Assembly: GCF_036013525.1 (NCBI RefSeq)
Contig: NZ_CP107853.1
Span: forward strand, 9,672,001-9,736,000
Origin: Nonomuraea sp. NBC_00507
GTDB taxonomy: Bacteria; Actinomycetota; Actinomycetes; Streptosporangiales; Streptosporangiaceae
Length of the DNA: 64,000 bases
Direction: 5' to 3'
Shown: piece after piece, positions 2,144 to 61,445 of the stretch
Position numbering within the stretch: the stretch's first letter is position 1
Layout: every line of letters starts with the position of its first letter
Translations under genes and position numbers: made by a program
Notes under the pieces: model-generated
Databases searched by the model: none
What the model was told of the DNA's origin: nothing
Seen by the model: only the letters and a program-made list of their open reading frames with translations

Positions 2144-2189
2144 AGCGCCTTACCGGCGACCAAACCGGTGGGCGAGCGCCTTACGGGCG
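2144..2189. repeat. 31-bp-period duplication of the nlpC gene 3' end
   Basis: AGCGCCTTACCGGCG (2144-2158) and AGCGCCTTACGGGCG (2175-2189) differ at one base. The second copy contains the real stop codon of the leftward NlpC/P60 gene (TTA on the plus strand, 2181-2183); the first places another TAA at 2150-2152 in a different frame. Confidence 0.6.
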
Positions 2190-3155
2190 GACGGCGCCGG
2201 CGAGGGTGCGGCCGTAGTCGGAGAGCTGGACGACCTTGATGACGTCACCGGTCTGTGGCGCGTGCACGATCTCCCCGTTCCCGGCATAGATGCTGACGTG
2301 CCCCAGCCCTTCGCTGAAGATGAGGTCACCGGGCTGGAGGTCGTCCAGAGACACCTTGCGGTCGGCCCCCCACGCCCACTGCTGCCACGTCGTGCGGGGA
2401 AGCGACACCCCTCCGGCCTGCCACGCCGCCTGCGTCAGCCCCGAGCAGTCGAACCCGCCGGGCCCCGTACCCCCGTAGACATACGGCTTGCCGACCTGCG
2501 CGTACGCGAACCGCAGCACCGCCGCCGCGTTCCCCGACGCCGACCCTGTGTACTTGATGCCGGCGCTGCTGGGATTTCCGGGATTGTAGGCGCCCAGCTT
2601 CTTCAGGAGCTTCTTCTGCTCGGCGATCAGCTTGAGGATCTCCGAGCGTTCCTTCTCCACCCCGTCGCGTTCGCTGTCCGCCGCTTCCAGCGCCTCCTGC
2701 GCCTTGTCACGCTCGGCCTTCAGCCCGCGGTTCTCCCGGTCGAAAGCGGCGAGCTTCTGCGCCCGCTCTTGCGACATCTGCCCCGCGACCGCCAGCCGCG
2801 ACAGGAAGTCCTCGGGATTGCCCGCGCCGATCAGCCCGGGAAGGGAGATGACGTCGCCACCGAGCCGGTAGCTGTCCACGGCCATGTTGATCACCTGGGC
2901 CCGCAGGTCGGCGACCGTCTCCAGCTTGCGCTTGTAGCCGTCGTTCAGCTTGACGTAGGTGCTCTTGGCCTTCTTGTAGCGTTCCGTCGCCGTGTTGTAC
3001 TGGTCGACGACCTTGTCGGCCTTGTCGTTGAGCTTCTCGAGCTTGGCCTTCGCCTGGCTGATCGTGGGCTTGGGATCAGCGACGGCGGCTCCCATGGGGG
3101 ACAGCACCAGCCCGAACGCGATACCCACGGACACCGGTACCCGGCCAAACCTCAC
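2181..3155 (-). CDS. NlpC/P60 peptidoglycan endopeptidase with coiled-coil N-terminus
   Basis: This is a secreted cell-wall hydrolase of about 324 aa. It has a signal peptide, a long charged coiled coil (about residues 35-190, rich in K/E/A), a short linker and a C-terminal NlpC/P60 domain. The catalytic residues are visible: Cys in FDCSGL, His in GHVSIY and a third polar His in EIVHAP. This is the RipA/RipC-like arrangement in which the coiled coil restrains or localises the peptidase. I chose GTG 3155 because GGGAGG lies seven bases upstream and a TACTAT -10 element precedes it; ATG 3179 is possible. The family cuts the D-Glu to diamino-acid bond in stem peptides. Confidence 0.88.
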   Translation of the reverse strand: MRFGRVPVSVGIAFGLVLSPMGAAVADPKPTISQAKAKLEKLNDKADKVVDQYNTATERYKKAKSTYVKLNDGYKRKLETVADLRAQVINMAVDSYRLGGDVISLPGLIGAGNPEDFLSRLAVAGQMSQERAQKLAAFDRENRGLKAERDKAQEALEAADSERDGVEKERSEILKLIAEQKKLLKKLGAYNPGNPSSAGIKYTGSASGNAAAVLRFAYAQVGKPYVYGGTGPGGFDCSGLTQAAWQAGGVSLPRTTWQQWAWGADRKVSLDDLQPGDLIFSEGLGHVSIYAGNGEIVHAPQTGDVIKVVQLSDYGRTLAGAVRP

Positions 3156-3189
3156 TGTGTCGCCTCCCAGGGATAACATCTGGGGCGAA

Positions 3190-3195
3190 ATAGTA
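3190..3195 (-). promoter_or_regulatory. Candidate -10 element of the NlpC/P60 gene
   Basis: Read on the minus strand this is TACTAT, close to the TANNNT consensus, and would start transcription about 28 bases before the GTG start. A -35 box is not clear. Confidence 0.4.
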
Positions 3196-3239
3196 CAGAA
3201 GTGGCGGCTGGGGTTGTCCCCAAATCGTCAATTCGTAAC

Positions 3240-4562
3240 CTAGGCCCGGCCGAGCCGACGCAGCAGCAAGGCAGACGGAACGGGTCTGGCTCCCATCCGC
3301 CTGACGGACTCGGCCACCTCGCGGTCCGACGACACCACGGCCATGGCCCGGCCGGGCGGCTCCGCGCGTACGAGCTGGCGGATCAGGTCGTCCGCGGTCT
3401 CCCCCGGCGCGCTGAACAGCACCCGCACCCCGCGCGGCGCGACCACCTGGACGGGGGCGTTGAGCTCGGCGCCGTCGAACACCACGGTCACCTCGACCCT
3501 GGTCTGCGCGACCAGCCCGCCGAGCCCGGTCATCAGCCGGTTGCGCTGGTCGGCGAGCGTGAGCGTGCCGTAGCCGGTCTTCGTGACGTTGTATCCGTCG
3601 ATGACCAGGTGCACCTGCGGCACCGCCAGCAGCTGGTCGAGCAGCTGCGGGTCGTCGTCGGCGAGGGCGCGCGCGGGCACCGCGCGCACGCCGGGCCGCT
3701 CGCCCGTGACGGCGGCGACCGAGTCCGCGGGCCGGCTGATCGTCGTGGGCAGGGCGAGCTCCCGACGCAGCCCGGCCGAGGCGTCCTGCAGCGCGTCGAG
3801 CAGCACCCTGATGCGGGCGTCCTCGATGCTCCTGCCCTCGCGGGCGGCCCGGCGCGAGGCCTCGAGCTGCTTCTCGACGTCGGCCAGCCGCTCACGCAAC
3901 CGCCGCAGCTCGGACTCGCCGGCGCTGCCCGCGACCACGGCGGCCGACCTGGCGTCCTCGGCCGCGCGCTCCATCTCCTCGGCCCGCGCGACCGCGGCCT
4001 TGGCGCGCTCGCGGGCGTCGTGGAGTTTGCGCCGCAGGTCGGAATTCTCGGCGCGGGCGAGCTTGACCTGCTCGCGCAGCCGATCGGCCTCCTCCTTGGC
4101 GGCGCTCTTCTGCGCGGCGAGCTGCTCACGCAGCCGCGAGACCACCTCTTCGCGCTCCGACCCCTCGGCCGCGGCGGCCGACTGCTCCAGGTCGGTGCGG
4201 GCGAGCTCGATCATCTCCTCCCAGCCGGGCGGCCGGATGAGGTAAGCCGCCGCGGCCACGAGCACGGGATCGGCGGCCGGCGGCACCTGGCCCTCGGCCA
4301 GGGAGGCCACCAGCTCGGGCCACCCGGCGGCCACCGACTCGGCGACCAGCTCGCGGAACTTCTTGTCGTTCTCCAGCTGCGCGGCGATGGGCGCGCTGCC
4401 GAGTTTGGCCCGCTTGCGCGGGTCGAATTTGGCGATGCCGCGCAACGGCGGTGGAATGGAGGCACCGGGCATCGTCCCGAGGACTTGAGCCGCCAGGTCG
4501 ACGACATTGAGCCGCACCTGCTCGGGAAGCGGGCGAGACAGGCCTTCACCCGCTGAACTCAT
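3240..4562 (-). CDS. NYN-domain (PIN-like) RNA-binding protein with coiled coil
   Basis: The protein is 440 aa. The N-terminal 120 residues are predicted helical, residues of about 125-245 form a strongly charged coiled coil, and the C-terminal 170 residues are a YacP-type NYN domain. That domain opens with VHLVIDGYNV, whose Asp and Asn are the usual metal/nucleic acid site, and has a second acidic strand at VVFDGAEL and VVSSDREV. YacP/Rae1-like proteins bind or cut RNA on ribosomes, so a role in RNA processing is plausible but not shown. The frame stays open far upstream; ATG 4562 is preferred because AAGGGAC lies upstream and the phosphotransferase gene is divergent. Confidence 0.8.
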   Translation of the reverse strand: MSSAGEGLSRPLPEQVRLNVVDLAAQVLGTMPGASIPPPLRGIAKFDPRKRAKLGSAPIAAQLENDKKFRELVAESVAAGWPELVASLAEGQVPPAADPVLVAAAAYLIRPPGWEEMIELARTDLEQSAAAAEGSEREEVVSRLREQLAAQKSAAKEEADRLREQVKLARAENSDLRRKLHDARERAKAAVARAEEMERAAEDARSAAVVAGSAGESELRRLRERLADVEKQLEASRRAAREGRSIEDARIRVLLDALQDASAGLRRELALPTTISRPADSVAAVTGERPGVRAVPARALADDDPQLLDQLLAVPQVHLVIDGYNVTKTGYGTLTLADQRNRLMTGLGGLVAQTRVEVTVVFDGAELNAPVQVVAPRGVRVLFSAPGETADDLIRQLVRAEPPGRAMAVVSSDREVAESVRRMGARPVPSALLLRRLGRA

Positions 4563-4706
4563 CCCACTTGTCCCTTCGTGACATGCCCTTTCAGACAAGG
4601 GTACGGCTGCCGCGTACCTGACCGTAACGGCCACCTGCGTATGGACGAGCGCTTGGTTGGGGGTGTACGACTGTGCCGGGGCGCCTGTTGAGCCGGGAGG
4701 CCGGTC

Positions 4707-5765
4707 ATGACCGAGCAGATGCGTACGTCCACCCGCGACCTGGAACAACTGCATGATCAGCTGACCGCCTGGCTCCGCGGCAGGGTCGGCAGGGACGCCT
4801 CGGTGTCCGGACTGTCCAGACCGACGAGTAACGGCATGTCCAGCGAGACCCTGTTCTTCACCGCCACCTGGGATGAGCAGCGAACGCGCTGCGTAGCACG
4901 GCTCGCACCGGCGGGAGAAGCCGTTCCGGTCTTTCCTTCGTACGATGTGCGGGCGCAGTTCGACGTGATGCGCCTGGCCAGGGAAATAGCTGGAATTCCA
5001 GCGCCCAGGGTCCTCTGGCTCGAGCCGGATCCCGGTCCACTCGGCACGCCGTTCTTCGTCATGGAATGCGCTGAGGGCGAGGTGCCGCCGGACGTGATGC
5101 CGTACACGTTCGGCGGGTGGCTGTGCGACGCCGCTCCCGAGGACCAGCGCAGGTTGCAGGACGCCAGCGTCGGGATCGTGGCGGCGCTGCACCAGGCGCC
5201 GTTCACGCCACGGGAGCTGTCCGTGATCGGGACCGGCGGGCTGCGGGCGCACGTCGAGGCGCAGCAGGCGTACTACGAGTGGGCGCACGGCAAGCGGCGC
5301 ATCCCCCTGCTGGAGCGGGCCTTCGGCTGGCTGGAGTCGCACTGGCCGGAGGATCCCGGGCCCGATGTGCTGTGCTGGGGCGACGCCAGGATCGGCAACC
5401 TGATGTTCCAGGACTTCACCCCGGTCGCGGTCCTCGACTGGGAGATGGCCGCCGTGGGGCCGCGCGAGCTGGATCTCTCCTGGATGATCTTCCTGCACCG
5501 GTTCTTCCAGGATCTCACCGTCGCCGCGGACTTCCCCGGCATGCCTGGATTCATGCGGCGTGACGACGTATGCCAGAAATATCGGGAGCTGACCGGCTAC
5601 CAGCCCCGCGACATGGACTTCTACGAGATGTACGCCGCCCTCCGGCACGGGATCATCATGGCCCGGGTGTGGCGCAGGATCCATTTCGGCGAGCAGCCCG
5701 ATCCGGCCGACCCCGACGACCTGGTCCTGCACCGGGCCACGATCGAGCAGCTGCTCAGTCGTTAG
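4707..5765 (+). CDS. Aminoglycoside phosphotransferase (APH)-family kinase
   Basis: This cytoplasmic protein is 352 aa with the APH/choline-kinase fold. LCWGDARIGNLMF is the Brenner catalytic loop with the catalytic Asp and metal-binding Asn, and VLDWEMA supplies the second metal Asp. The closest family pattern is the ACAD10/FadE-associated group (phosphotransferase family protein) found in actinobacteria, which act on hydroxyacyl compounds or are uncharacterised. Resistance is not implied. The start has GGGAGG upstream. It is divergent from the NYN gene, and its last 11 bases overlap the end of the convergent response-regulator gene. Confidence 0.8.
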   Translation: MTEQMRTSTRDLEQLHDQLTAWLRGRVGRDASVSGLSRPTSNGMSSETLFFTATWDEQRTRCVARLAPAGEAVPVFPSYDVRAQFDVMRLAREIAGIPAPRVLWLEPDPGPLGTPFFVMECAEGEVPPDVMPYTFGGWLCDAAPEDQRRLQDASVGIVAALHQAPFTPRELSVIGTGGLRAHVEAQQAYYEWAHGKRRIPLLERAFGWLESHWPEDPGPDVLCWGDARIGNLMFQDFTPVAVLDWEMAAVGPRELDLSWMIFLHRFFQDLTVAADFPGMPGFMRRDDVCQKYRELTGYQPRDMDFYEMYAALRHGIIMARVWRRIHFGEQPDPADPDDLVLHRATIEQLLSR

Positions 5766-10008: not shown

Positions 10009-10020
10009 CGGAAAAGAAGC

Positions 10021-17009: not shown

Positions 17010-17050
17010 GACACCGGCCCCGGCGGAAAGATCCGTCCGGGGCCGGTGTC
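17010..17050 (-). terminator. Rho-independent terminator of the qcr operon
   Basis: GACACCGGCCCCGG (17010-17023) pairs perfectly with CCGGGGCCGGTGTC (17037-17050) across a 13-base loop. Read leftward the stem is followed by TTTCATTTTTAC, a U-rich tail. The right arm is partly made of the duplicated qcrB 3' end. Confidence 0.85.
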
Positions 17051-17070
17051 ATCAGCGGGCCGGTGTCATC
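17041..17070. repeat. 17-bp-period duplication of the qcrB 3' end
   Basis: GGCCGGTGTCATC occurs at 17041-17053 and 17058-17070. The second copy contains the real qcrB stop (TCA on the plus strand, 17066-17068); the first places another at 17049-17051, out of frame with it. Confidence 0.65.
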
Positions 17071-24329: not shown

Positions 24330-24363
24330 AGCGGGCGTCCTCCCCCAAGGAAGGACACCCGCT
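24330..24363 (-). terminator. Rho-independent terminator of the cta operon
   Basis: AGCGGGCGTCCT (24330-24341) pairs with AGGACACCCGCT (24352-24363) with one G-U type mismatch. Read leftward it ends in TTTTTCAGG. It terminates ctaC-ctaD-ctaF. Confidence 0.8.
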
Positions 24364-24367
24364 CCGG

Positions 24368-24388
24368 TTTCGCTCAGCTTTCGCTCAG
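24368..24388. repeat. 11-bp-period duplication of the ctaF 3' end
   Basis: TTTCGCTCAG occurs at 24368-24377 and 24379-24388. The second copy holds the real ctaF stop (TCA, 24385-24387); the first holds another at 24374-24376 in a different frame. Confidence 0.6.
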
Positions 24389-28882: not shown

Positions 28883-28928
28883 CTCAGGCGTGGTGGCAGC
28901 TCGGAGTCGGCTCAGGGGTGGTAGCAGC
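28883..28928. repeat. 28-bp-period duplication of the adoK 3' end
   Basis: CTCAGGCGTGGTGGCAGC (28883-28900) and CTCAGGGGTGGTAGCAGC (28911-28928) match at 16 of 18 bases. The second includes the real adoK stop (TCA, 28912-28914); the first repeats it at 28884-28886 in another frame. Confidence 0.65.
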
Positions 28929-31793: not shown

Positions 31794-31901
31794 CTCCCCC
31801 GCCGAGACGTCGACTCCAGGAGATCCGATACGGCGCGGCGACGGACGCCCCTGTGTTTGAGAGCCACTGAAATTCCAGCCACCGGCCGCACGGCCGAGAT
31901 C

Positions 31902-32402
31902 ATGATCGCCGAAGCCCGCAAGGCGTTCTGGGTGATGGTCGGGTTCCTGGCTGTCATCTGGGTCGTGCAGATCGTCAGCTGGGCATCGGGCTATGCGCTG
32001 AGCTATGAGTTCGGCGTACAGGCATGGAACCCCGCGAGCCTGCCCGACATCGTGGCCAGCGGCCTCGGCGCCTGGTTCACTTCTCAGCCGATGAGCGTCG
32101 GCGCGGGCGCGAGCGGCGTCGTCTTCGGGTACTTCGGCTACGTACTGGTGCGCGGCGCGTTCGACCGGCATCTCATCGACATCGTGGTCGGCGTGGTCAT
32201 GGCGCTGTGCTTCGCCTATCAGTTCGCCGGATTGCTGCCCCAGGAGGGCATCGGCTGGCAGGCTCACTTGTTCGGCTTCCTCGGGGGTCTGCTGGGCGGC
32301 TGGTTGTTCCGCGACCGCGGCCGCCCCCGGCCCGCAACGGCGTCCCCTGACCCGAACTCTCGGGCCACGCTACTGAAGGAATTGGACGATCTCGGGCTCT
32401 GA
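31902..32402 (+). pseudogene. Rhomboid-family protein with an internal in-frame deletion
   Basis: The protein is 166 aa. The C-terminal half is a clear rhomboid: the catalytic Ser is in VGAGASGVVFGYFGYVL and the His in WQAHLFGFLGGLLGGWL. The N-terminal segment ends FGVQAWNPASLPDI, then jumps straight to VASGLGAWFTSQ. In normal actinobacterial rhomboids about 45 residues lie between these points, including the first core helix and the HxxxN-type loop (family knowledge). The frame survives, so a shortened protein could still be made, but proteolytic activity is doubtful. Confidence 0.65.
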
Positions 32403-32432
32403 CGGCGCGCGGGACACTAGCTGGTGAAGGCC

Positions 32433-32645
32433 CTACAGGTTCCCAAACAGCGAGAACATGACGTAGCCAACCGAGCCGACAAGCAGGCACACCGCACCGA
32501 GGGCCGCGCCCGCCGCAACTGCGAAGATTCGCACGTCACGAGGTCGCCCTGCCGAGACCGCTCGCCCCACAGCCATGCCAGCGGCAGGAAGAGCCACGGC
32601 CGCGATGCCGCCTCCCTTGATCAGCTCCGTGGTTAGCCACTCCAA
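32433..32645 (-). CDS. Small membrane protein, hypothetical
   Basis: The protein is 70 aa, unrecognised, with two hydrophobic segments (about 10-30 and 42-66) joined by a short basic loop. It would use a TTG start, and the nearest ribosome-like site (GGAAG) is very close to it, so the call is weak. It ends 30 bp past the rhomboid remnant in convergent orientation. Confidence 0.4.
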   Translation of the reverse strand: MEWLTTELIKGGGIAAVALPAAGMAVGRAVSAGRPRDVRIFAVAAGAALGAVCLLVGSVGYVMFSLFGNL

Positions 32646-32657
32646 CTTCCAGAGGCT

Positions 32658-32774
32658 TCACGCCAACAGCCCGTAGCCGGTGAGGACCGCCACACATACG
32701 ACGCTGAAGCCGAAAGCGGCAAACAGACGGGTGCCCTGATCAGGGAAGGACGTCTTGGCGCAGATGATCGCATG
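32658..32774 (-). pseudogene. Startless fragment of a small membrane protein
   Basis: A 38-codon open frame has no ATG, GTG or TTG. It encodes a Gly/Phe/Val-rich transmembrane stretch (GTRLFAAFGFSVVCVAVL) and ends at a TGA just upstream of the 70-aa gene. It looks like the tail of a lost gene. Confidence 0.3.
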
Positions 32775-32812
32775 TCATCGCAACTGCTGTCCTGAGGCTA
32801 GATAGTGCGTGG

Positions 32813-33574
32813 TCAGGTGTTGGCGGCCAGGAATGGCAGCACTTGGGGAAGCACGTCCCCGGACTTGTCCCAGCCCTCCTTGTGATCGGCATCGGGCAAG
32901 GAGAAGAAGGCCGCAACACCGGTGCGGTCGGCGAAGGTGCGCATCGGGTCGTGCCAGGGATCCGCCGTGCCCGCATACAGCATCATGGGCACGCCGGAGG
33001 CGGCGAGCTCGGCGTGCAGGCCAGCCTCGCGGGAGAACGCCTCGTAGTTGGCGCGGAAGGCGCCGAGGTCGCCGGAGCCGATCAGAGCGGCCTGGTAAGG
33101 GTCGGTGGCGGCGCCCTGCTTGATCAGGGTATAGGGGTCGGTGTCGGCGGGCAGGGCCAATTGCCGCAGTGTGGGCTCGATGGCCGAGCGGAAGCCGCCG
33201 ATGGGGTCCCAGGCGCCGGCCACCAGGCAAGTCAGGCGGTCCGGGGCGAGCGCCGCGACCGCGTAACCGGTCATTGCGCCCAGGGAGTAGCCCCAGAACG
33301 CGGCACGGTCGGCGCCCACGTCGTCGAGCACGGCCGTCACGTACGCGACACGCCGTTCCAGCGCGTACGCCTCGACCTCGCGCGGCGCGTCGCCGGCGCC
33401 CAGTCCCGGAGGGTCGATGGCGATCACCGTGTAGGCGGGCGTCAGGGACGACGTGTAACCGCTATGGGTCCAATGTGCCCCGTCCTGAAACATCCCGGGG
33501 TGGAGCACCAGCGGCGGGCCGTCCCCCGAAACCTCGTAGGAGATCTTGAAACCGTTGCTGCGTGCGATGGGCAC
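32813..33574 (-). CDS. Alpha/beta hydrolase
   Basis: The protein is 253 aa and complete. The oxyanion-hole region is LVLHPGMFQDG, the nucleophile elbow is GYSLGAMTG (Ser in GxSxG), the acid is in YAGTADPWHDP and the His is in DADHKEGW. GTG 33574 has GGAGG upstream. It is divergent from an HxlR-type regulator with a palindrome in the 93-bp gap, so it is probably the regulated target, perhaps a detoxifying esterase. The substrate is unknown. Confidence 0.85.
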   Translation of the reverse strand: MPIARSNGFKISYEVSGDGPPLVLHPGMFQDGAHWTHSGYTSSLTPAYTVIAIDPPGLGAGDAPREVEAYALERRVAYVTAVLDDVGADRAAFWGYSLGAMTGYAVAALAPDRLTCLVAGAWDPIGGFRSAIEPTLRQLALPADTDPYTLIKQGAATDPYQAALIGSGDLGAFRANYEAFSREAGLHAELAASGVPMMLYAGTADPWHDPMRTFADRTGVAAFFSLPDADHKEGWDKSGDVLPQVLPFLAANT

Positions 33575-33603
33575 ACATCCTCCAAAGGGCTTGTACGCAG
33601 GAA

Positions 33604-33620
33604 CGTTACGACTTGTAACG
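33604..33620. promoter_or_regulatory. Candidate HxlR operator
   Basis: CGTTAC (33604-33609) and GTAACG (33615-33620) form a dyad with a five-base centre in the divergent promoter of the hydrolase and the HxlR gene. HxlR regulators bind such palindromes in divergent spacers. Confidence 0.5.
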
Positions 33621-33667
33621 GGACCCATCGTGGAGCATGATCGGACGGACCGGAAGGAGGCACTTTC

Positions 33668-34069
33668 TTGTCGCAACGGAACACCGGGGTAACGGACCAG
33701 CTCGCGGCCGGGAGCGAGGCGGGCGGTCCCGACGACGAATGTCCCTTGCCCGAGGTGCTGGCCTTGATCGGCGGCAAGTGGAGTGCCCAGGTGCTGGTGG
33801 AACTGGGCGACGGCCCGCGCAGGTTCACCCAGCTGGAGCGGGCCATCCCGGGGATCAGCCGCCGCATGCTGACGGTGAGCCTGCGCGACCTGGAACGCAA
33901 CGGGCTCGTCACGCGCACCGTCTATCCGGACGCGCCGCCACGCGTCGAGTACGCCACCACGCCGTTGATCGAGGACATCCGCGAGCCGTTGGAGGCGCTC
34001 ACGGCCTGGGCCCGCCGTGCCGCGCCGGTCATCACGGCGGCCCGCCGGGAGTACGACAACCGTCAGTGA
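33668..34069 (+). CDS. HxlR-family transcriptional regulator
   Basis: The protein is 133 aa. A winged helix of the HxlR type covers residues 25-120: CPLPEVLALIGGKWSAQVL with the conserved N-terminal Cys, then RRFTQLERAIPGISRRML and LTVSLRDLERNGLVTRTVYP. The N-terminal Cys often senses electrophiles in the family. It starts with TTG and has a strong GGAGG site. It is divergent from the alpha/beta hydrolase. Confidence 0.88.
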   Translation: MSQRNTGVTDQLAAGSEAGGPDDECPLPEVLALIGGKWSAQVLVELGDGPRRFTQLERAIPGISRRMLTVSLRDLERNGLVTRTVYPDAPPRVEYATTPLIEDIREPLEALTAWARRAAPVITAARREYDNRQ

Positions 34070-34085
34070 GCGGGCCGCACGCCCA

Positions 34086-34214
34086 TCACAGCCGGTCTGT
34101 CAGGAACGCGCTCACCGCCGTACGGAAGCCGTCCGGGTCATCGGCCCAGGGCACGTGGCCGGCCTGTGGAAGGACCACACGGGACACGCGGGCCAGCGCC
34201 CGCCGTGGTGCACT
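34086..34214 (-). pseudogene. C-terminal remnant of an alpha/beta hydrolase
   Basis: About 43 codons encode the end of an alpha/beta hydrolase: VVLPQAGHVPWADDP contains the catalytic-His region and FRTAVSAFLTDRL the last helix. The rest of the gene is missing; upstream sequence is replaced by the repeat array at 34263-34360. Confidence 0.55.
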
Positions 34215-34262
34215 CGCTCCATCGATCCACTCTCCAGCGTCTGGACTGGTGTCTTCGGCAGT

Positions 34263-34360
34263 ATGTCGGCTCACGATCCCGCAGAATGTCAGTCCAATGG
34301 CTCAACTATGTCGGTTTGGAAAGCCGTGAAATGTCGGTGCTCCCTCCGTAGAATGTCGGT
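34263..34360 (+). repeat. Five 8-bp direct repeats at 22/23-bp spacing before the DUF4143 gene
   Basis: ATGTCGGC (34263), ATGTCAGT (34286), ATGTCGGT (34308), ATGTCGGT (34331) and ATGTCGGT (34353) start 23, 22, 23 and 22 bases apart. The bases between are unrelated. The ATG of the last copy is in frame with the DUF4143 ORF and may be its start codon. The layout resembles iterons or the multiple subterminal transposase sites of IS21-type elements. Confidence 0.7.
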
Positions 34361-35630
34361 TCTACAGATGGGGGAGCTCGTGGAGCTGGTGCCGAGACAC
34401 ATCGTCGATCATGCGGTCGAGTTCCTGGCGGCCTTCAGAGTGGTGATCATCAACGGGCCTCGCCAGTCCGGGAAGACCACACTCCTGCGGCAACTTGAGG
34501 CCTGTCGTGGCGGCACGTACCTGACATTGGACGATGGCACGCTACGCGCCGCCGCGCATGCCGATCCGGAGGTGTTCGTAGCCGACGGGCCCAAGCCGAT
34601 GATGATCGATGAGATCCAACGTGGCGGTGACGACCTTGTGCTCGCGATCAAATCGGCCGTGGACCGCTCGGCGGAACGCGGGCAGTTCGTGCTCGCAGGC
34701 TCGACCAGGTTTCTTGCGACTCCGTCGCTGAGCGAATCTCTGGCCGGACGTGCGAGCATCATTGAAGTCTGGCCCTTCGCGCAACAGGAGCTCTCGGGCG
34801 GCGGCACATCCTTTCTCGAGAGAGCATTCCAGGAGCCGGAGTCCTTCAGGACGACGACACCGAGTTCGTGCGACAGGGAGGACTACTTCGATCTCATCGC
34901 CCGGGGCTTCTACCCCGAAGTCATGGCGATGCGGTCGGAGCTCGCCCGCGGCGAGTGGTACAGGGCCTACGTGCAGTCCATCATCGACACCGACATTCGA
35001 GAGATGGCGAAGATCGATGAGCCCAGCAACCTCCGGCAACTTTTGAGACTTGTCGCCGCCTCCACCGCTCAGGAGCTCAACGTCGTCAAGACCGCCGGCG
35101 ATCTCGGGCTCCACCGCACCACGGTCAGTCGCTACCTCGGCCTGCTGGAAACCGTTTTCCTCGTGCAGTCGCTGCCTGCCTGGTCGCGCAATCTCAACGC
35201 CAGGGCCGTACGGCGTCCCAAGGTGCACATCACCGACACCGGGCTGGCCGCGCACTTGCTGTCGGTGGACGCTGAAGGGTTGTCAGCACGCGTGGCGCCC
35301 GCCCGTGGGGCGCTCGTGGAGACCTTCATCGCCAATGAGCTGGCCAAGCAAGCGACATGGGCGCCGTACCGGATGAATCTTTTTCACTGGCGTATCAGTC
35401 AGGGTGCCGAGGTCGACCTAGTGATCGAGCGGACCAACGGCCGGGTGGTCGGCGTGGAGGCCAAATCCACCGATGCCGTGGACCTCAAGGACTTCAAGGG
35501 CTTGACGACCCTCAGGGACGCTCTCGGCGATCAATTCGTCCACGGATTCGTGCTCTACACCGGGAAGCGCTCACTCGCCTTCGGCGACCGGCTGACCGCG
35601 CTGCCGATCAGCGCCCTGTGGGACCGCTAG
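34353..35630 (+). CDS. AAA-type ATPase with DUF4143 nuclease-like domain
   Basis: The protein is about 425 aa. Walker A is INGPRQSGKTT, Walker B is PMMIDEIQR, and sensor 1 is FVLAGSTRF. A winged-helix region follows (DLGLHRTTVSRYLGLLETVF), then the DUF4143 restriction-endonuclease-like fold with GAEVDLVIER and GVEAKSTDAVDL, the D-ExK-type metal site. Such proteins are widespread, often single and mobile, with unknown function; links to defence or DNA transactions are speculation. The start is uncertain (34353, 34368 or a later GTG). It is flanked by gene debris on both sides. Confidence 0.85.
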   Translation: MSVLQMGELVELVPRHIVDHAVEFLAAFRVVIINGPRQSGKTTLLRQLEACRGGTYLTLDDGTLRAAAHADPEVFVADGPKPMMIDEIQRGGDDLVLAIKSAVDRSAERGQFVLAGSTRFLATPSLSESLAGRASIIEVWPFAQQELSGGGTSFLERAFQEPESFRTTTPSSCDREDYFDLIARGFYPEVMAMRSELARGEWYRAYVQSIIDTDIREMAKIDEPSNLRQLLRLVAASTAQELNVVKTAGDLGLHRTTVSRYLGLLETVFLVQSLPAWSRNLNARAVRRPKVHITDTGLAAHLLSVDAEGLSARVAPARGALVETFIANELAKQATWAPYRMNLFHWRISQGAEVDLVIERTNGRVVGVEAKSTDAVDLKDFKGLTTLRDALGDQFVHGFVLYTGKRSLAFGDRLTALPISALWDR

Positions 35631-35876
35631 GAGGGACGCGCGGGCTCGATCGCGGCGGCGGTACTTGCCGGGCTGCCGTTCCCCGCAGCGGAGTTCGACT
35701 CGCTGATCTGGGAGCTGGAGGAGCGGCTGGCGCGCGAGCGCAGCGAGGAGTTCAGCGAGCGGTTCCCGCTCTGGGACCTGCTGTGGGGCCGCTACTACCT
35801 GGAGTTCCTCGTCTTCGATCTCATGCCGAGCCTGGACGAGACCGGCCTCCTGGCCGGATTGGAGCACAAGCCATGA
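35631..35876 (+). pseudogene. Startless C-terminal gene fragment
   Basis: Right after the DUF4143 TAG the same frame stays open for 81 codons with strong coding-type G+C at third positions, but lacks a start codon until near its end. It encodes FDSLIWELEERLARERSEEF, then WDLLWGRYYLEFLVFDLMPS. Its TGA overlaps the ATG of the hydrolase pseudogene (ATGA), so it was probably the 3' end of an operon partner whose 5' part was lost. The family is not recognised. Confidence 0.5.
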
Positions 35877-36533
35877 TGCGAAACGCCCTGTACATCGGGC
35901 GCGAATGGAACGTCGAGCATGACCGGCGGGCGCAGGTGAGCGACGCCGAGCTCAGGTACGCCGTGCTGGGAGAGGGCGAGCCCGTGCTGAGCATCGAGGG
36001 CGGCGCCCAGCACGCCCGCGAACTGCTCGATCACCTGGGCATCGAGAAGGCGCACATCATGGCCTTCTCCTTCGGCGGGGTGATCGCCTTCCAGTTCCTG
36101 CTGTCCTACCCCGAGCGGGCGCACAGCGCGATCCTGCTGGAGCCGTACCTGCCGCGCGAGGAGCCGGACACGATCACCGCCAACGTCGACGCCTTCATGA
36201 ACGCGATGAAGCTGTACGAGACGGGCGACAAGCTGGGCGCGGCCCAGCTGTACATGGAGGCGGTGTGCGGGCCGAGCTTCCTGCCCGCCGTCGAGATGAC
36301 GGGGCCGCTCGACGTGTGGGACCGCGTCGAGCAGTGCGTCGACACGACCTTCGCCGACTTCCCGGCGATCTCGCAGTGGGGCTTCAAGCCGTCAGACGCA
36401 GCGGTTCCTCATGAACTGGCTGCCGCAGGCCGAGCGGGCCGGCATCCCCAACGCCACGCACGGGATGTAGAGCATGAACCCGGTGGCCGTGGGCGAGGCC
36501 GCCCACGCGTTCCTCAAGCGCCACCCCATGTGA
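35873..36533 (+). pseudogene. Alpha/beta hydrolase pseudogene with two deletions, a frameshift and a nonsense codon
   Basis: The first part encodes LRYAVLGEGEPVL joined directly to SIEGGAQHARELLDHL; normal homologues have about 40 residues between (the HG oxyanion loop), so an in-frame deletion is inferred. The nucleophile elbow survives as AFSFGGV. After QWGFKPSDA the coding frame shifts, with the last part readable as RFLMNWLPQAERAGIPNATH in another frame. There the expected Gln before SMNPVAVGEAAHAFL is TAG. The original C-terminus ends at 36533. Confidence 0.75.
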
Positions 36534-45321: not shown

Positions 45322-46020
45322 ATGCTGCGCGCATACCGTGTTGCGGCGGGGGTCGCCCTCGGGGCGGCCGCCTTCCTCTCCCTCCCCTCCTCCGCCCTCG
45401 CCTCCCCCTCGATCAATCCCAACGCCCCTCTGCCCGGTGTGGCGGATCCCCATGCCACGCGGCTGTGGAGCGTCTGGCAGAGCGACGGCACGGCCTGGCT
45501 CGCGACCGCGGCCGGGGACACGCCGGCGGACGGCTCCGTCATCGGCTGGCGCTTCTCCGCGGCCCCGGACGGGGCGGCGAGCGAGTCCCCCGGCGGGGAC
45601 CTGCCCGCGTTCGAGACCGTGTGCGGCAAGGACACCGCGGCGTCCGGGCACAAGCGGGTTGCGGTGGCAGTGGACTTCGGCGACGGCGACACCGACGCCT
45701 ACCCCGGCGACCAGCCGCCCGCCCAAGGGGTGCTCACGTGCGTGGCCGGGACCGAGGACGCCACCACGGCCCAGTTGCTCGCCACCGCGGCCAAGGTGCG
45801 GGTGAACGGCCAGGGTGACGTCGTGGCCGTCAACGACTACCCGGCCAAGGAGAAAGGCGGCACCCAGCTGACTGCCGCCGCGCCCGCCGCCGGCGGAGGG
45901 GGTGGCGGGGTGCCGGTCGCACTGATCGCAGGCGGCGCGGGCGCGCTCGCGCTGATCGCCGGCGGCGCCGTCGTGGCCACCCGCCGCCGCGCCAAGCCCT
46001 CCGCCCCTGCGGCCCGCTAG
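45322..46020 (+). CDS. SCO2322-family secreted membrane-anchored protein
   Basis: The protein is 232 aa. It has a signal peptide (ending about ALASPS at 29), an extracellular domain with two Cys (ETVCGKD, VLTCVAG), and a Gly-rich hinge before a C-terminal transmembrane helix and basic stop-transfer (AGGAVVATRRRAK). It matches the SCO2322 family, often found near ECF-type vitamin or cobalt uptake genes; here the next genes are cobU and cobS. GGAGG precedes ATG 45322. Confidence 0.75.
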   Translation: MLRAYRVAAGVALGAAAFLSLPSSALASPSINPNAPLPGVADPHATRLWSVWQSDGTAWLATAAGDTPADGSVIGWRFSAAPDGAASESPGGDLPAFETVCGKDTAASGHKRVAVAVDFGDGDTDAYPGDQPPAQGVLTCVAGTEDATTAQLLATAAKVRVNGQGDVVAVNDYPAKEKGGTQLTAAAPAAGGGGGGVPVALIAGGAGALALIAGGAVVATRRRAKPSAPAAR

Positions 46021-46115
46021 GCGCCCGCGCGGCTCGACCGCCGACGACCCGGCCCGCTAGGCTCCCGCGCGGCCGGACCGCCGACGACCCGGCCCGGCGA
46101 GCGCCCGCGGTCCGG
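46011..46115. repeat. 40-bp tandem repeat covering the SCO2322-family stop codon
   Basis: Unit 1 (46011-46050) and unit 2 (46051-46090) differ at about three of 40 bases; a partial third unit runs to about 46115. Unit 1 contains the real TAG (46018-46020) and unit 2 repeats TAG at 46058-46060, shifted by one frame. Confidence 0.75.
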
Positions 46116-46138: not shown

Positions 46139-47218
46139 GTGAAGGTCCTTCTCTCCGGTACGGCGGGCGGCGCGGGCTGGCCCGAGCCCGGCTGCCGGTG
46201 CGTCTCCTGTGCAGGGCTGCCGCCCGGACATCGCCACCCGTTCGAGCTGGTCGTGGACGGCGCCGTCCGTTTTCCGTTCGCCGAGGCGCCGCGCGGCTAC
46301 CGCGTCTGCGGCGGCGGCCGCGGGCTGGTCGGCCCGGATGGGGCGGCGCTGCTGTGCCTGCCGCCGAGCCTGAAACCGTCGCCCGACCCCGGCGTGGCCC
46401 CCCGGTACGACGACGAACCATCCCGGTACGACGTGGTGCTGATCGACCTGCTGGACCGGCCGGAGCGGCTCGGCGCGCTGCGGCGGGCGGGACTGGTGGA
46501 CGAGGCGACCCAGGTGGTGGCGATCGGGCTGGATCACCGGGTGCGGTCGGAGGACGAGTTGGCCAGGCGGCTTCGGCTGTGGGGCGCAGTGGCCGTCCCG
46601 GACGGGACCGCGCTGGAGACCCCGGACGGCACCGCGCTGGAGACCCTGCCGATCGCACACCGCGCGCCCGTTGAGCGGCGGCGGTCGGCGTGCAGCCCGC
46701 AGGTGCGGCGGGCGTTGTTACTGGGTGGGACGCGGTCAGGAAAGTCGGCGGAGGCCGAACTGCGGCTGGCGGCCGAGCCGTACGTGACCTATGTCGCCAC
46801 CGGCCCGGACGGTGCGGGCGACGGCGAATGGGCCGCGCGGGTGCGGGCACACCGGTCCCGGCGGCCCGCGCACTGGGACACGGTCGAGACGATCGACCTG
46901 GCCACCACGATCGCGAACGCCACCACCCCGCTGTTGATCGACGGGCTCGGGACATGGCTGGCAGCGGTGTTCGACGAGCATGGGGCCTGGGAGGGCGACC
47001 GGGCGCCGGTCGGCCACCGGTGCGACGAGCTGGTGGCGGCGTGGCGGCAGGCTCCGGAGCCGATCGTGGCGGTGTCCGACGAGGTGGGGATGGGGGTGGT
47101 GCCCGCGACGGCCAGCGGACGGCTGTTCAGGGACACGCTCGGCCGGCTCAACGAGCGCCTCGCCGCGGAGTCCGAGTACGTGGCACTGGTCGTGGCGGGA
47201 CGGCTCCTGGAGCTGTGA
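46139..47218 (+). CDS. cobU: CobU-type adenosylcobinamide kinase/guanylyltransferase with N-terminal extra domain
   Basis: The protein is 359 aa. The C-terminal 175 residues are CobU: the P-loop GGTRSGKSAEAELRL, VTYVATGP, HRSRRPAHWDTVE and SDEVGMGVVPATASGRLFRD. It phosphorylates adenosylcobinamide and adds GMP for the lower-loop assembly by CobS. The first 180 residues form an extra domain with CRCVSCAG (possible zinc site) that resembles a reduced metallo-beta-lactamase-like fold seen in actinobacterial CobU proteins. An exact octapeptide repeat (PDGTALET twice, 46598-46645) lies between the domains. GTG start. Confidence 0.88.
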   Translation: MKVLLSGTAGGAGWPEPGCRCVSCAGLPPGHRHPFELVVDGAVRFPFAEAPRGYRVCGGGRGLVGPDGAALLCLPPSLKPSPDPGVAPRYDDEPSRYDVVLIDLLDRPERLGALRRAGLVDEATQVVAIGLDHRVRSEDELARRLRLWGAVAVPDGTALETPDGTALETLPIAHRAPVERRRSACSPQVRRALLLGGTRSGKSAEAELRLAAEPYVTYVATGPDGAGDGEWAARVRAHRSRRPAHWDTVETIDLATTIANATTPLLIDGLGTWLAAVFDEHGAWEGDRAPVGHRCDELVAAWRQAPEPIVAVSDEVGMGVVPATASGRLFRDTLGRLNERLAAESEYVALVVAGRLLEL

Positions 47219-47252
47219 CCCGCGGAAACGGACCGCACGCGCGACCGGCGTG

Positions 47253-47428
47253 CGCCGTCACGGGCAGGCGGCGCGGGCGTTCCAGCGGCCGGGGTACGCC
47301 GTCACGGGCAGGCGGCGCGGGTGTTCCAGCGGCCGGGGTACGCCGTCACGGGCAGGCGGCGCGGGTGTTCCAGCGGTCGGGGTGCGCCGTCACGGGCGGA
47401 CGGCGCGGGCGTACCAGCGGCCGTCGAG
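47253..47428. repeat. 44-bp tandem array derived from the ABC ATPase 3' end
   Basis: Units start at 47253, 47297, 47341 and 47385. The last unit is the true end of the leftward ABC gene, with the stop at 47390-47392. The other three repeat that end and carry TCA (TGA on the minus strand) at 47346, 47302 and 47258. The three outer units differ by only one or two bases and each encodes RWNTRAACP-stop in its own frame. Confidence 0.85.
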
Positions 47429-48223: not shown

Positions 48224-49180
48224 ATGCCACTGATGCACGGGCTGCGTTTCGCGATCGGGACGCTCAGCGTCTTCCCCGTGCGGGTCGATCACGTGGACCG
48301 GCAGGTCGCGGGGCAGGCGATGACGCTGGCGCCCGTCGTCGGGCTGGCGCTCGGCGTGCTCGCCGGATTGCCTCTGGGCCTGCCCGTGCCCGCCTTGCTG
48401 GGTGCGGCGCTGGCGGTCGGGCTGCTGGCCCTGCTGACCCGGGGCCTGCACCTGGACGGGCTGGCCGACCTGGCGGACGGGCTGGGCAGCGGCAAGCCCG
48501 CTGATCAGGCGCTCGACATCATGAAAAAGTCGGACATCGGGCCGTTCGGCGTGATGGCTCTGGTCTTCACGTTGCTCGTCCAGGTGGCGGCACTGGCGGA
48601 GGCCGGGTTCGCGGCCCTGGTGGCCGCCTGCGTGGCGGGGCGGCTGACCCTGACGTGGGCCTGCCGGCCGAGCGTCCCCGCCGCCCGGCCGGAAGGGTTG
48701 GGGGCGACGGTCGCCGGCACGGTACGCCCTTCCGCGCCCTGGCTCGTCACCTTGGCCGCCCTGCTCGCCTCCGCCGCCTTCGGCCTGTCCATCGACTCCC
48801 ACGTCTGGGACGGCGGGCCGGCGGCCTTGGCCCGGGAAGCGACCACGTGGTTCACCGGCTCGGACCCCCGGTACCTCACGCCAGGGGTCAAGTACGGCGA
48901 CGAGGCCGTGCTCGTTGAGAAGTACCTCGTCGGCGAGCCCTCGACGCTGGGTGTCGCCATGGCGTCCCGGTACCCGCCGGAGGGCGTACCAGGGAACGCG
49001 GGCCTGGGGCTGCCCGCCCTGCTGGCGCTGCCGCTCGGCCTCCTGACCGGGCTGGCGGCCGCCCTGCTGCTGCTCCGGCGCGCCAGGCGGCGTCTCGGCG
49101 GCATCACCGGCGACGTCCTAGGCGCGCTGGTGGAGACGGCCACGGCCGCCACGCTGGTGGCCTGCGCGCTGCTCAGCTGA
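48224..49180 (+). CDS. cobS: Adenosylcobinamide-GDP ribazoletransferase
   Basis: The protein is 318 aa, longer than the usual 250 or so. Family motifs are RFAIGTLSVFPV at the start, TRGLHLDGLADLADGLG with the metal-binding Asp/His cluster, MKKSDIGPFGVMAL and RRLGGITGDVLGALVE. It joins GDP-cobinamide to alpha-ribazole in B12 synthesis at the membrane. The extra 65-70 residues sit between transmembrane helices (SIDSHVWDGGPAALAREATT to about YPPEGVPGNAGL). The start could be ATG 48224 or 48233. Confidence 0.92.
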   Translation: MPLMHGLRFAIGTLSVFPVRVDHVDRQVAGQAMTLAPVVGLALGVLAGLPLGLPVPALLGAALAVGLLALLTRGLHLDGLADLADGLGSGKPADQALDIMKKSDIGPFGVMALVFTLLVQVAALAEAGFAALVAACVAGRLTLTWACRPSVPAARPEGLGATVAGTVRPSAPWLVTLAALLASAAFGLSIDSHVWDGGPAALAREATTWFTGSDPRYLTPGVKYGDEAVLVEKYLVGEPSTLGVAMASRYPPEGVPGNAGLGLPALLALPLGLLTGLAAALLLLRRARRRLGGITGDVLGALVETATAATLVACALLS

Positions 49181-49260
49181 TCGCGCTCGACTGACCGCGC
49201 TCGACTGACCGCGCTCGGCTGAGCGGGCTCGGCTGACCGGGCTCGGCTGAGCAGCGGAGT
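49177..49260. repeat. 14-bp tandem array starting at the cobS stop codon
   Basis: Six units beginning CTGA start at 49177, 49191, 49205, 49219, 49233 and 49247. The first unit contains the true cobS TGA (49178-49180). Because the period is 14, the repeated TGAs fall in all three frames. Degenerate units may continue to the convergent CPBP stop at 49270. Confidence 0.8.
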
Positions 49261-55373: not shown

Positions 55374-55412
55374 TCCTAGCCCTCGAGATCAGAACGCGAG
55401 AGAAGAATAACG

Positions 55413-56903
<1,491 letters not shown>

Positions 56904-56910
56904 GGGGTTC

Positions 56911-56950
56911 AGGGAAAGGGCCGGGCGGGGTTCCGCCCGGCCCTTTCCCT
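56911..56950. terminator. Long perfect hairpin after the E2 gene
   Basis: AGGGAAAGGGCCGGGCGG (56911-56928) pairs perfectly with CCGCCCGGCCCTTTCCCT (56933-56950) over a four-base loop. There is no U-tract; this is the I-shaped type common in actinobacteria. Confidence 0.85.
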
Positions 56951-57004
56951 GTGCCGGCCCGGTTCGCCGGGCGCATCCGCGGGTGGGCCGCGTAGGGTGA
57001 GCGT

Positions 57005-57898: not shown

Positions 57899-57936
57899 GG
57901 GCCGTTCATCCTTCTTTTCAGGTAGGAGATCATGAC

Positions 57937-58674: not shown

Positions 58675-58712
58675 ATTACCCTTCAAGGGTGAGGGAACGG
58701 CACAATAGGCTC

Positions 58713-59417
58713 ATGCGCCCCGGAGCTCGCACCCACGGGGACGATCCCCACGCACTGGCCATCGTCCGTCTCGGCGTCGACGTCCCCTACGAGCAGGCCT
58801 GGTCGCTGCAGCGCTGGGTGCACGGCAAGCGCGTGGCGGGCGAGCTGCCCGACACCGTACTGATCCTCGAGCACGCGCCCGTCTACACCGCGGGAAAGCG
58901 CACCGCCCCGCAGGAGCGCCCGTCCGACGGCACCCCGGTCATCGACGTCGATCGCGGCGGCCGGCTCACCTGGCACGGTCCCGGGCAGCTCGTCGCCTAT
59001 CCGATCGTCGGCGGCGTCACGGACGTGATCACGTACGCCTGCCGCCTGGAGGAGACGATGATCCAGGTGTGCGCCGACTTCGGCGTCACCGCCCGGCGGG
59101 TGCCGGGCAGGGGCGGCGTGTGGGCGAAGGGCGATCCGAACCTGGGGCTGCCGGATCGCCAGCTCGGCGCGGTCGGCATCCGCGTCTCGCGCGGCGTCAC
59201 CATGCACGGCTTCGCGCTCAACTGCGCCAACGACCCTCGCTGGTTCAACCGCATCGCGCCGTGCGGGCTGCCCGACGTGGGCGTCTCCTCGCTGTCGGCG
59301 GAGACCGGCCGGCGCATCGTGGTCGAAGAGGTCCTGCCGATCGCGGAGAAGCGGCTGGCCGAGGCGCTCGGCATGGAGGCGTTCGAGCTGCACGAAGAGG
59401 ACCTCCTCCGGAGGTAA
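58713..59417 (+). CDS. lipB: Octanoyl-[acyl-carrier-protein] transferase
   Basis: The protein is 234 aa. Its motifs are DRGGRLTWHGPGQLVAYPI, the Lys-containing VWAKGDPNLGLP (reduced), GIRVSRGVTMHGFALNC and APCGLPDVGVSSL, which contains the acyl-thioester Cys. It moves octanoyl from ACP to lipoyl domains, the first step of lipoate synthesis. ATG 58713; the upstream ACCCT/AGGGT dyad (58679-58691) may be part of its leader. Confidence 0.95.
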   Translation: MRPGARTHGDDPHALAIVRLGVDVPYEQAWSLQRWVHGKRVAGELPDTVLILEHAPVYTAGKRTAPQERPSDGTPVIDVDRGGRLTWHGPGQLVAYPIVGGVTDVITYACRLEETMIQVCADFGVTARRVPGRGGVWAKGDPNLGLPDRQLGAVGIRVSRGVTMHGFALNCANDPRWFNRIAPCGLPDVGVSSLSAETGRRIVVEEVLPIAEKRLAEALGMEAFELHEEDLLRR

Positions 59418-59475
59418 CCGGATCGGCATTTAATAGCGTCGAAAACCGGGATATCACCGGCTTACCATCACCCGT

Positions 59476-60456
59476 GTGAAGCGCCTCCTGGCTCTCCTTC
59501 TCGCGCTCCTCGTGCACCTGATGACGCTGGCGTTCCTCGTGCTGGGCGCGTGGACCATCCTGGCGCACGCGGATTCACTGCTCGCGTGGCTGCTCGGCGG
59601 GCTGTGCCTGGCCATCGGCTGGGTGCTGCGGCCACGCCTGGCCCGGCTGCCCGCCGACGCCGAGACGCTCGAGCACGACTCGGCCCCTGAGCTGTACGCC
59701 GTCGCCGAGCGCGTGGCGGACCGGGTCGGCGTGACGCGGCCGCGCAAGATCGCGATCAGAGACCTGGCCGCCGAGACCGGCTACGACCGGGTGGGCCTGG
59801 CACGTACGCCGGTGCTGGTCGTGGGGCTGCCGCTGTGGCTGGCCCTGCCGCCCAGGCAGCGGGTGACGCTGCTGGCGAGCGCGTACGCCCGCGTGCCGAC
59901 CGGTGAGGAGCTCATCGTGGGTGGCGCGCTGGACACGCTGGAGGCCTGGCGGGACGCCCTGATGGAGGCCGGGCCGCTGCGGGTCAGGGAAGAGGCGCAC
60001 ACCACGATCACCGCCGCCTCCCTGGGCGTCGCCGACCAGCCGGGGACCGCGTACGAGGTGGCGGGGTTCTTCGGCCGCCTGCTCGGCCGGGTGCTCGGCG
60101 CTCCCGTGCTGCTGATGCGGTACGCGCTCAGCCGGCTGGCCCGCGCCGGCGAGCCCCGTACCAGGGAACGGCGGCAGGCGCTGACGCGGCGGGTCGCCTC
60201 CGCGGCGGAGCAGGCGGAGCTGGAGGAGCTGCGGTCCGGCGGCTACCTGGCGCCGATGCAGGCGGCGGCGCTGCGCGGCGAAAACGCGGCGTCGATCAGG
60301 CAGGCTGCGCTGGCCAGGTCCCGGCTCACCGCCGACGGCGTGCTCGCCGCGGCCCCGCACTGCGATCTGCTCGGCACGCGCGCGTCCGAGCGCATCGACG
60401 ACGAGCTCCAGACCTATTACGCCCGGGCGATCCGCGGCTTCGGTCTCATCTCGTGA
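59476..60456 (+). CDS. M48-like membrane protein lacking the zinc motif
   Basis: The protein is 326 aa. Two N-terminal helices (about 4-52) and the segment following (DSAPELYAVAERVADRVGV; VLVVGLPLWLALPPRQRVTL) are arranged as in HtpX/Ste24 M48 proteases. Where HExxH should follow, the sequence is LLASAYARVPTGEE, so the zinc site is missing and proteolysis is unlikely. It lies between lipB and lipA on the same strand. The role is unknown. Start GTG 59476. Confidence 0.7.
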   Translation: MKRLLALLLALLVHLMTLAFLVLGAWTILAHADSLLAWLLGGLCLAIGWVLRPRLARLPADAETLEHDSAPELYAVAERVADRVGVTRPRKIAIRDLAAETGYDRVGLARTPVLVVGLPLWLALPPRQRVTLLASAYARVPTGEELIVGGALDTLEAWRDALMEAGPLRVREEAHTTITAASLGVADQPGTAYEVAGFFGRLLGRVLGAPVLLMRYALSRLARAGEPRTRERRQALTRRVASAAEQAELEELRSGGYLAPMQAAALRGENAASIRQAALARSRLTADGVLAAAPHCDLLGTRASERIDDELQTYYARAIRGFGLIS

Positions 60457-60498
60457 CCCTCGACCGGGCCGGCTCACCGGGAGACGTAAGCTGAGGAC

Positions 60499-61428
60499 GT
60501 GACCGTTGCTCCTGAAGGCCGAAAGCTCCTCCGCCTGGAGGTGCGCAACGCCGAAACCCCTATCGAGCGCAAGCCCCCATGGATCAAGACCAAGCTCAAG
60601 ACGGGCCCCGAATACACCGAGCTGAAATCGCTCGTGCGCCGCGAGGGCCTGCACACGGTCTGTGAAGAGGCGGGCTGTCCCAATATCTACGAGTGCTGGG
60701 AAGACCGCGAGGCGACCTTCCTCATCGGCGGCGACCAGTGCACGCGCCGCTGCGACTTCTGCCAGATCGACACGGGCAAGCCGAAGGAGTACGACCGCGA
60801 CGAGCCGCGCCGGGTCGCCGAGTCCGTCCAGCAGATGGGCTTGAAGTACGCGACCGTGACCGGCGTGGCCCGCGACGACCTGCCCGACGGCGGGGCCTGG
60901 CTCTACGCCGAGACCGCCCGCCAGATCCACGCCCTGCTGCCCGGCTGCGGCGTCGAGCTGCTGGTGCCCGACTTCAACGGCAACCGCGAGCAGCTGGAGG
61001 AGGTCTTCTCCAGCAAGCCGGAGGTGTTCGCGCACAACGTGGAGACTGTGCCGCGGATCTTCAAGCGCATCCGTCCCGCGTTCCGCTACGACCGATCCCT
61101 CAACGTGATCACCATGGCCCGCGAGGCCGGGCTGGTCACCAAGTCCAACCTGATCCTGGGCATGGGCGAGACCCGCGAGGAGATCGTCGAGGCCATGCGC
61201 GACCTGCACGCGGCCGGCACCGACCTGCTGACCATCACGCAATACCTGCGGCCGACGCCCCGCCACCACCCGGTGGAGCGGTGGGTGAAGCCGGAGGAGT
61301 TCGTCGAGCTGCAGGCCGAGGCCGAGGCGATCGGGTTCGCCGGCGTCCTGTCCGGGCCGCTGGTCCGCTCGTCCTACCGGGCGGGCAAGCTCTACAAGCA
61401 GGCCATCGAGGCGCGCCAGACCGCTTGA
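60499..61428 (+). CDS. lipA: Lipoyl synthase
   Basis: The protein is 309 aa and a radical-SAM enzyme with two [4Fe-4S] clusters. The auxiliary cluster uses [12 protein letters not shown], the SAM cluster uses CTRRCDFC, and the terminal RSSYRAGK holds the Ser ligand. It inserts two sulfurs into octanoyl groups on E2 and H proteins. It probably depends on the Fe-S and sulfur carriers encoded at 27-30 kb. GTG 60499. Confidence 0.97.
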
Positions 61429-61445
61429 GGCCAGCTGAGGACAGC
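61426..61445. repeat. 10-bp duplication at the lipA stop codon
   Basis: TGAGGCCAGC (61426-61435) is followed directly by TGAGGACAGC (61436-61445). The first TGA is the real stop; the second lies one frame away. Confidence 0.5.

Follow-up and report, generated by a model that had tools for sequence, protein, structure and literature searches.

Tandem repeats that run through the stop codons of several genes in a 64,000-nucleotide stretch of the Nonomuraea sp. NBC_00507 genome (the window; contig C1, positions 9672001-9736000) are most probably ordinary young minisatellites (variable-number tandem repeats [VNTRs]) of the slippage type, tolerated in the least constrained DNA. We put the probability of this reading at about 0.83. 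Replication slippage or unequal exchange would produce tandem duplications of roughly 10 to 60 bp chromosome-wide. Within genes, only multiples of three would survive, and few duplications would survive in the promoter gaps of this region. Past stop codons every length would be tolerated, because the protein is unaffected when the duplicated segment contains the stop. Convergent gene ends would be the least constrained DNA here, hence a gathering of arrays in them, and some units would extend back across the stop and so copy it. The distribution of the arrays and the strain comparison both show this pattern of survival by compartment.

Gene-end repeats in the window

A sequence-only reading of the window had described eight genes whose last coding bases and stop are repeated downstream. 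We scored each stop by the best ungapped self-match running through it (match, +1; mismatch, -2; periods 4 to 60), and TRF was also run on the window repeats. The eight are as follows.

2135..2189, minus strand, stop at 2181: NlpC/P60 end; period 31, two imperfect copies with TAA in each, score 15
17040..17070, minus strand, stop at 17066: qcrB end (QcrB model NF050120); period 17, two copies, score 14
24360..24388, minus strand: ctaF end; period 11, reported by TRF, score 12
28883..28928, minus strand, stop at 28912: adoK (PfkB kinase) end; period 28, two imperfect copies, score 12
46010..46096, plus strand, stop at 46020: SCO2322-family end (NF040672); period 40, two copies with TAG in each, score 38
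47241..47420, minus strand, stop at 47390: ABC ATPase end; period 44, four copies with TGA in each, score 106
49171..49250, plus strand, stop at 49180: cobS end; period 14, about six copies, score 45
61426..61445, plus strand: lipA end; period 10, score 7, judged to be chance

TRF counted 4.2 units in the ABC ATPase array and 5.7 in the cobS array. Head-to-tail units of about 10 to 100 bp are clear at qcrB, SCO2322, ABC ATPase, and cobS and imperfect at NlpC/P60 and adoK, where the match does not extend over a full period. Family searches agree with the earlier names (NlpC/P60, QcrB, cytochrome c oxidase subunit IV, PfkB kinase, SCO2322 family, ABC ATPase, CobS, and lipoyl synthase), with adoK identified as a PfkB-family kinase only; the name adoK is that of the sequence-only reading. 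The nearest named relatives of the ABC ATPase are from Nonomuraea, the closest being from Nonomuraea sp. G32 (99% identity; best 80 of 93). A terminator-like hairpin lies at 61443-61468, after the lipA repeat, and no known RNA element reached the gathering threshold within the window.

Six arrays differ between strains

We compared the window with a same-species genome (G046) and a sister species (G031). The qcrB array has two copies in the window and five in G046, the ABC ATPase array four and two, and the SCO2322 array two and one, and at these three ends the differences are clearly of whole units. The NlpC/P60 end is 27 bp shorter in G046, with one copy, and the adoK end is 25 bp longer. 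At cobS, the 14-base unit has fewer copies in G046, which carries an additional repeat there, for a net difference of 2 bp. Five of the six arrays thus differ in length from G046, by 25 to 88 bp, and cobS differs in make-up, which supports all six independently of their scores. The ctaF and lipA ends are of equal length in the two strains. The lipA repeat is a chance match, because its score of 7 is common among sampled stops (71/1675 attain it) and its length is the same in G046. The ctaF repeat scores the same as that of adoK, 12, yet is identical in G046. Therefore, the suspicion that the two shortest cases (10 and 11 bp) are chance was right for lipA, and ctaF stays between the two groups.

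The sequence-only reading had proposed comparing orthologous ends in sister species. None of the six arrays is present in G031, whose stops line up with the stop of the first copy in the window (judged by eye; stops within 30 nt). Since the sister species has no arrays but the same gene ends, the duplications are young and sit behind an unchanged protein end.

The G046 ABC ATPase gene ends in TAA and that of the window in TGA, and the other G046 copy of the unit retains TGA. The single SCO2322 unit of G046 is bordered on both sides by CGGCCCG (read by eye), a possible template for slippage.

Could 70% GC sequence yield such matches by chance? This applies to lipA and possibly to ctaF. However, 600 kb of first-order Markov sequence gave three tandem arrays scoring at least 12 and none scoring at least 14, and the strain differences refute chance for the six. 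As a general explanation, chance is scarcely credible.

Indels of at least 6 bp show how length changes are filtered. In 58 kb aligned between the window and G046, all 8 coding indels are multiples of three (0.16/kb). The 11 noncoding ones fall 4/5/2 into period classes modulo 3 (0/1/2), and their density (1.34/kb) is eight times higher. This bears out the earlier suggestion of a slippage process filtered by selection, as does the variation of arrays within the species. Two coding repeats also vary between strains. A cobU-like gene has an in-frame 24-bp repeat (46592-46651) that is 48 bp longer in G046, with two extra copies, so the length of its protein is strain variable. In the gene at 55413-56903, Pro/Ala-rich coding repeats (55712-56156) differ by 6, 27, and 9 bp, each divisible by three. 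Apart from the repeats, alignment to G046 breaks at 31801-36394, where about 37 kb in G046 faces about 4.6 kb between neighboring blocks (>800 bp); this probably reflects a large insertion in one strain or a deletion in the other.

We then counted repeats scoring at least 10 in relatives. Among 36 loci around the ABC ATPase gene, one of them from the same species, repeats were found at 3/36 ABC ATPase stops, 4/35 cobS stops, 6/33 stops of the facing CPBP gene, 2/36 cobU stops, and 0/10 SCO2322 stops, and the periods at the first four mostly differ. The adoK end qualified in 7/34 rows, three of which are the own or same-species locus; ends in other species have unrelated arrays (periods 18, 29, and 10, plus a weak 11). 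The qcrB end qualified in 4/34 (three own or same species) and the lipA end in 2/34. Stop-bearing arrays are therefore not conserved across these relatives; they differ between strains and species.

Stop repeats are frequent only in one region

The genome comprises 12.9 Mb on two contigs. Our sample of it consisted of stretches totaling 2.04 Mb with 1770 genes, about 16% of the genome. Genes were called with a codon model and dynamic programming; the start positions are approximate, and genes in variable regions were sometimes missed. Stops less than 130 nt from a stretch end were excluded, as were stretch L001 and 18 loci from the own or same-species genome or from genomes covered by longer stretches. 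In the array tests only, repeats with a match shorter than the period minus 6 were also excluded. Stretch L049 (inside L063-L064) and locus L110 (overlapping L280-L281) were removed from the main array, stop, and start counts. L049 is still in the own-genome downstream-stop densities, the next-stop median, the counts of coding arrays near stops, and the flank triplet-distance counts. L110 is still in the relatives' downstream-stop densities, the array-edge profile, the stop-half split, the counts of coding arrays near stops, and the other-genera set. The flank is the region around the window (C1, 9.47-9.96 Mb; 9472001-9960000), and the rest is all other sampled stretches.

Stops scoring at least 12 numbered 7/57 in the window, 11/367 in the flank, and 4/1251 in the rest (22/1675 in total). 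The 11 flank hits represent 8 distinct repeats, with three convergent pairs counted twice. Starts, scored in mirror image, gave 0/58, 0/370, and 4/1279 (4/1707 in total), and other noncoding stop-like triplets gave 7/369, 10/2298, and 48/11061. The window stands out (Fisher, 4e-6), the flank is raised, and the rest is at background, such ends being rare there.

The sequence-only reading placed the origin of slippage at stop codons. In the flank, however, stop-like triplets 0 to 80 nt past a stop also carry repeats (4/281, or 14 per 1000), compared with 1/376 at 80 to 400 nt and 11/381 true stops (8 distinct repeats) in the same count. Repeats are thus raised around gene ends as a whole, and within that zone nothing clearly sets the stop codon apart. 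In three convergent pairs of the flank (L070:11442-11478, L071:2213-2235, and L073:17046-17111), one repeat carries both stops, with a separate copy at the end of each gene.

Array placement largely follows constraint

In gaps of the relatives away from the stops of the eight genes, array density was highest between convergent genes (18 in 8.9 kb, 2.01/kb), lower between co-directional genes (27 in 44.0 kb, 0.61/kb), and lowest between divergent genes (3 in 28.8 kb, 0.10/kb). The same order held in the own region: 12 arrays in 16.6 kb, 17 in 28.3 kb, and 1 in 16.3 kb, respectively. Single-nucleotide polymorphism (SNP) divergence from G046 follows it as well, at 5.06% for convergent gaps (1068 sites), 2.87% for co-directional gaps, and 1.12% for divergent gaps. 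Fourfold sites differ at 4.32%, and convergent gaps are not distinguishable from them (Fisher, 0.27).

To predict how many arrays should span a stop, the first copy of each unit was placed randomly within gaps of its own type. In the own sample minus the window, 5.0 were predicted and 6 seen (P = 0.39); with the window, 5.5 were predicted and 9 seen (P = 0.09). A small set from other genera (29 loci, 11 arrays) had 2 stop-spanning arrays against 1.7 expected.

No clear avoidance of multiples of three outside the window

None of the eight periods is a multiple of three, for which a chance probability of (2/3)^8, about 0.04, had been given. The six supported periods are indeed all in the other two classes. 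With the repeats that stand, the probability becomes (2/3)^6 = 0.09 or (2/3)^7 = 0.06. Tandem stop-spanning arrays in the own genome minus the window fall 2/2/2 into the classes modulo 3 (0/1/2), and those of the relatives in gaps away from the eight genes' stops fall 5/5/4. Together they give 7/7/6 (n = 20), which lends no support to avoidance of multiples of three at gene ends that were not selected for repeats. All relatives, including the selected genes, gave 6/10/11 (P = 0.31). Looser stop scores for the whole own sample, with the window and double counts in, gave 12/11/10 at scores of at least 9 and 5/10/7 at scores of at least 12. A weak bias may still exist, because scores of at least 15 in the same sample gave 2/7/5.

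Coding arrays had periods that are multiples of three in 64/65 cases (own) and 55/55 cases (relatives). We also checked whether such duplications at gene ends are absorbed into the open reading frame (ORF). In the own genome, 10 coding arrays lie near a stop and 51 in the interior (6.9 versus 3.5 per 100 kb); in relatives, 4 and 47 do (5.1 versus 6.7 per 100 kb).

Extra stops are probably by-products

The sequence-only reading had offered a fail-safe role, in which selection retains out-of-frame copies of the stop to halt ribosomes that read through or shift frame. Compared with array-free G031, 5/6 genes do have a shorter longest open frame beyond the stop, and all frames are closed within 39 nt at cobS and within 129 nt at ABC ATPase. 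The next stop in frames 0/1/2 lies at 231/28/191 nt (NlpC/P60), 351/262/11 nt (qcrB), 573/25/104 nt (adoK), 651/37/119 nt (SCO2322), 129/85/41 nt (ABC ATPase), and 39/25/11 nt (cobS). However, in 4/6 array genes the in-frame stop is more than 200 nt away (231, 351, 573, and 651 nt), compared with a sample median of 132 nt. When the period is not divisible by three, the frame is regained only in the fourth copy; therefore, an in-frame stop could be gained only at ABC ATPase and cobS, and the 129-nt stop of the former is also present in array-free G031.

In 561 own genes, stop triplets per 10 codons in the three frames are as dense at +1 to +30 (0.18/0.20/0.18) as at +61 to +90 (0.18/0.19/0.20). 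The 220 genes from relatives are mixed: 0.19/0.17/0.23 near the stop, above shuffled sequence (0.17/0.15/0.14), and 0.15/0.19/0.24 farther away, which exceeds the shuffles too in two frames. The even spread of stop-spanning periods and the turnover of stop-bearing arrays among strains and species also argue against a fail-safe. Ho and Hurst (2019; PMC6764699) report selection for additional in-frame stops in some eukaryotes but none in eubacteria. A fail-safe is therefore very improbable, and the extra stops are most probably by-products of duplication.

Are gene ends mutational hot spots?

Several results weigh against tolerance in unconstrained DNA as the whole explanation. Noncoding array density in C1 from 9.47 to 9.96 Mb is about three times that elsewhere (30 in 69 kb versus 36 in 271 kb), and constraint alone does not account for this regional excess. 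True stops in the flank (11/367) exceed noncoding stop-like triplets (10/2298) about sevenfold. In relatives, 14 stop-spanning arrays were seen against 7.2 predicted in nonselected gaps (P = 0.007) and 27 against 14.6 in all gaps (P = 0.0004), and array edges within 20 nt of the stop reach two to three times the density found farther away, with a nearly flat profile in the own genome. Convergent-gap arrays had 13/66 periods in class zero when pooled (P = 0.018), which is weak contrary evidence on the period question, and 8/39 without the window and selected gaps (P = 0.12). Compared with the more distant G031, only 21/36 coding indels were multiples of three (21/10/5 by class; 39 noncoding, 9/17/13); the exceptions are perhaps alignment or gene-call errors. 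Depletion of divergent gaps does not extend to the rest of the own genome, where they hold 15 arrays in 74 kb, convergent gaps 11 in 48 kb, and co-directional gaps 8 in 116 kb, although 10 of the 15 divergent arrays have periods in multiples of three, which suggests missed genes.

Part of the stop excess in relatives can be located. Convergent gaps alone are near expectation (3.9 predicted, 5 seen), and therefore the excess is mainly in co-directional gaps. There, arrays lie in the stop half in 29 cases and in the other half in 11 (own genome, 12 versus 13), and the relatives' preference fits avoidance of the promoter of the next gene. Some stop-proximal excess remains in relatives, but it is mild.

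These observations bear on the alternative that gene ends, chiefly convergent ones, are mutational hot spots for duplication (e.g., through fork stalling at terminators or head-on transcription). The stop-proximal excess in relatives and the regional difference in density favor it, as does the recurrence of unrelated arrays at the adoK end across species (periods 18, 29, 10, and 25/28) and in the cobS-CPBP gap. However, the own genome minus the window has no stop excess of tandem arrays, and SNP divergence in convergent gaps is not below the synonymous rate (1068 convergent sites), so relaxed constraint is enough. We consider this alternative unlikely. It is similarly doubtful that convergent ends within a single core segment of the Nonomuraea chromosome are true hot spots, where duplications recur and supply strain-specific 3' untranslated sequence; replication stalling at transcription terminators would perhaps be the cause. 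GC skew of the genome gave no placement of the origin or terminus.

Significance and relation to known systems

If the arrays are young minisatellites, a striking stop-codon pattern can emerge without function, and duplications that span a stop can extend into coding sequence at any length with the protein unaltered. For Nonomuraea, the arrays could serve as markers in strain typing, and the differences among convergent, co-directional, and divergent gaps illustrate on a small scale how constraint shapes repeats. A mutational origin of the regional excess would indicate replication trouble at gene ends. Among the matches listed, titles and abstract openings in the open-license literature mention no stop-spanning repeats in actinomycetes.

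MIRU elements of mycobacteria are repeats of 40 to 100 bp, some of them strain variable, that are scattered over 41 sites in H37Rv. We searched for such dispersal with three of the six arrays and found no full second site (40 of 98 to 195 candidates scored in each search). The ABC ATPase unit had one 29-base partial match elsewhere in the own genome (40 of 100 candidates scored), and the cobS unit had no other site (40 of 98 scored). Therefore, unlike MIRU, these three arrays do not belong to a dispersed family, as far as the scored candidates go.

Like the stops studied by Ho and Hurst, the extra stops described here lie beyond the primary stop; unlike the in-frame stops of that work, they are mostly out of frame and are by-products of duplication (PMC6764699). 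A parallel is found in the repeats of archaeal Borgs, in which ORF-internal repeats are reported to be all multiples of three in length, compared with just 14 to 38% of intergenic ones (PMC9879509). Borg repeats share with ours fast evolution, independent origins, multiples of three inside ORFs, and flanking partial repeats. However, they are perfect, A-enriched, and pervasive, whereas the bacterial arrays of Nonomuraea are GC-rich and for the most part degenerate.

The rnc-fpg1 VNTR of Mycobacterium tuberculosis is a variable intergenic repeat, studied as an upstream region tied to expression of the next gene (PMC2734929). Unlike it, the Nonomuraea arrays run across the stop and are found mostly between convergent genes. 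Like it, they consist of head-to-tail units of tens of bases, vary between strains, and are absent in related species. Among bacterial repeats, mycobacterial VNTRs come closest to the arrays described here.

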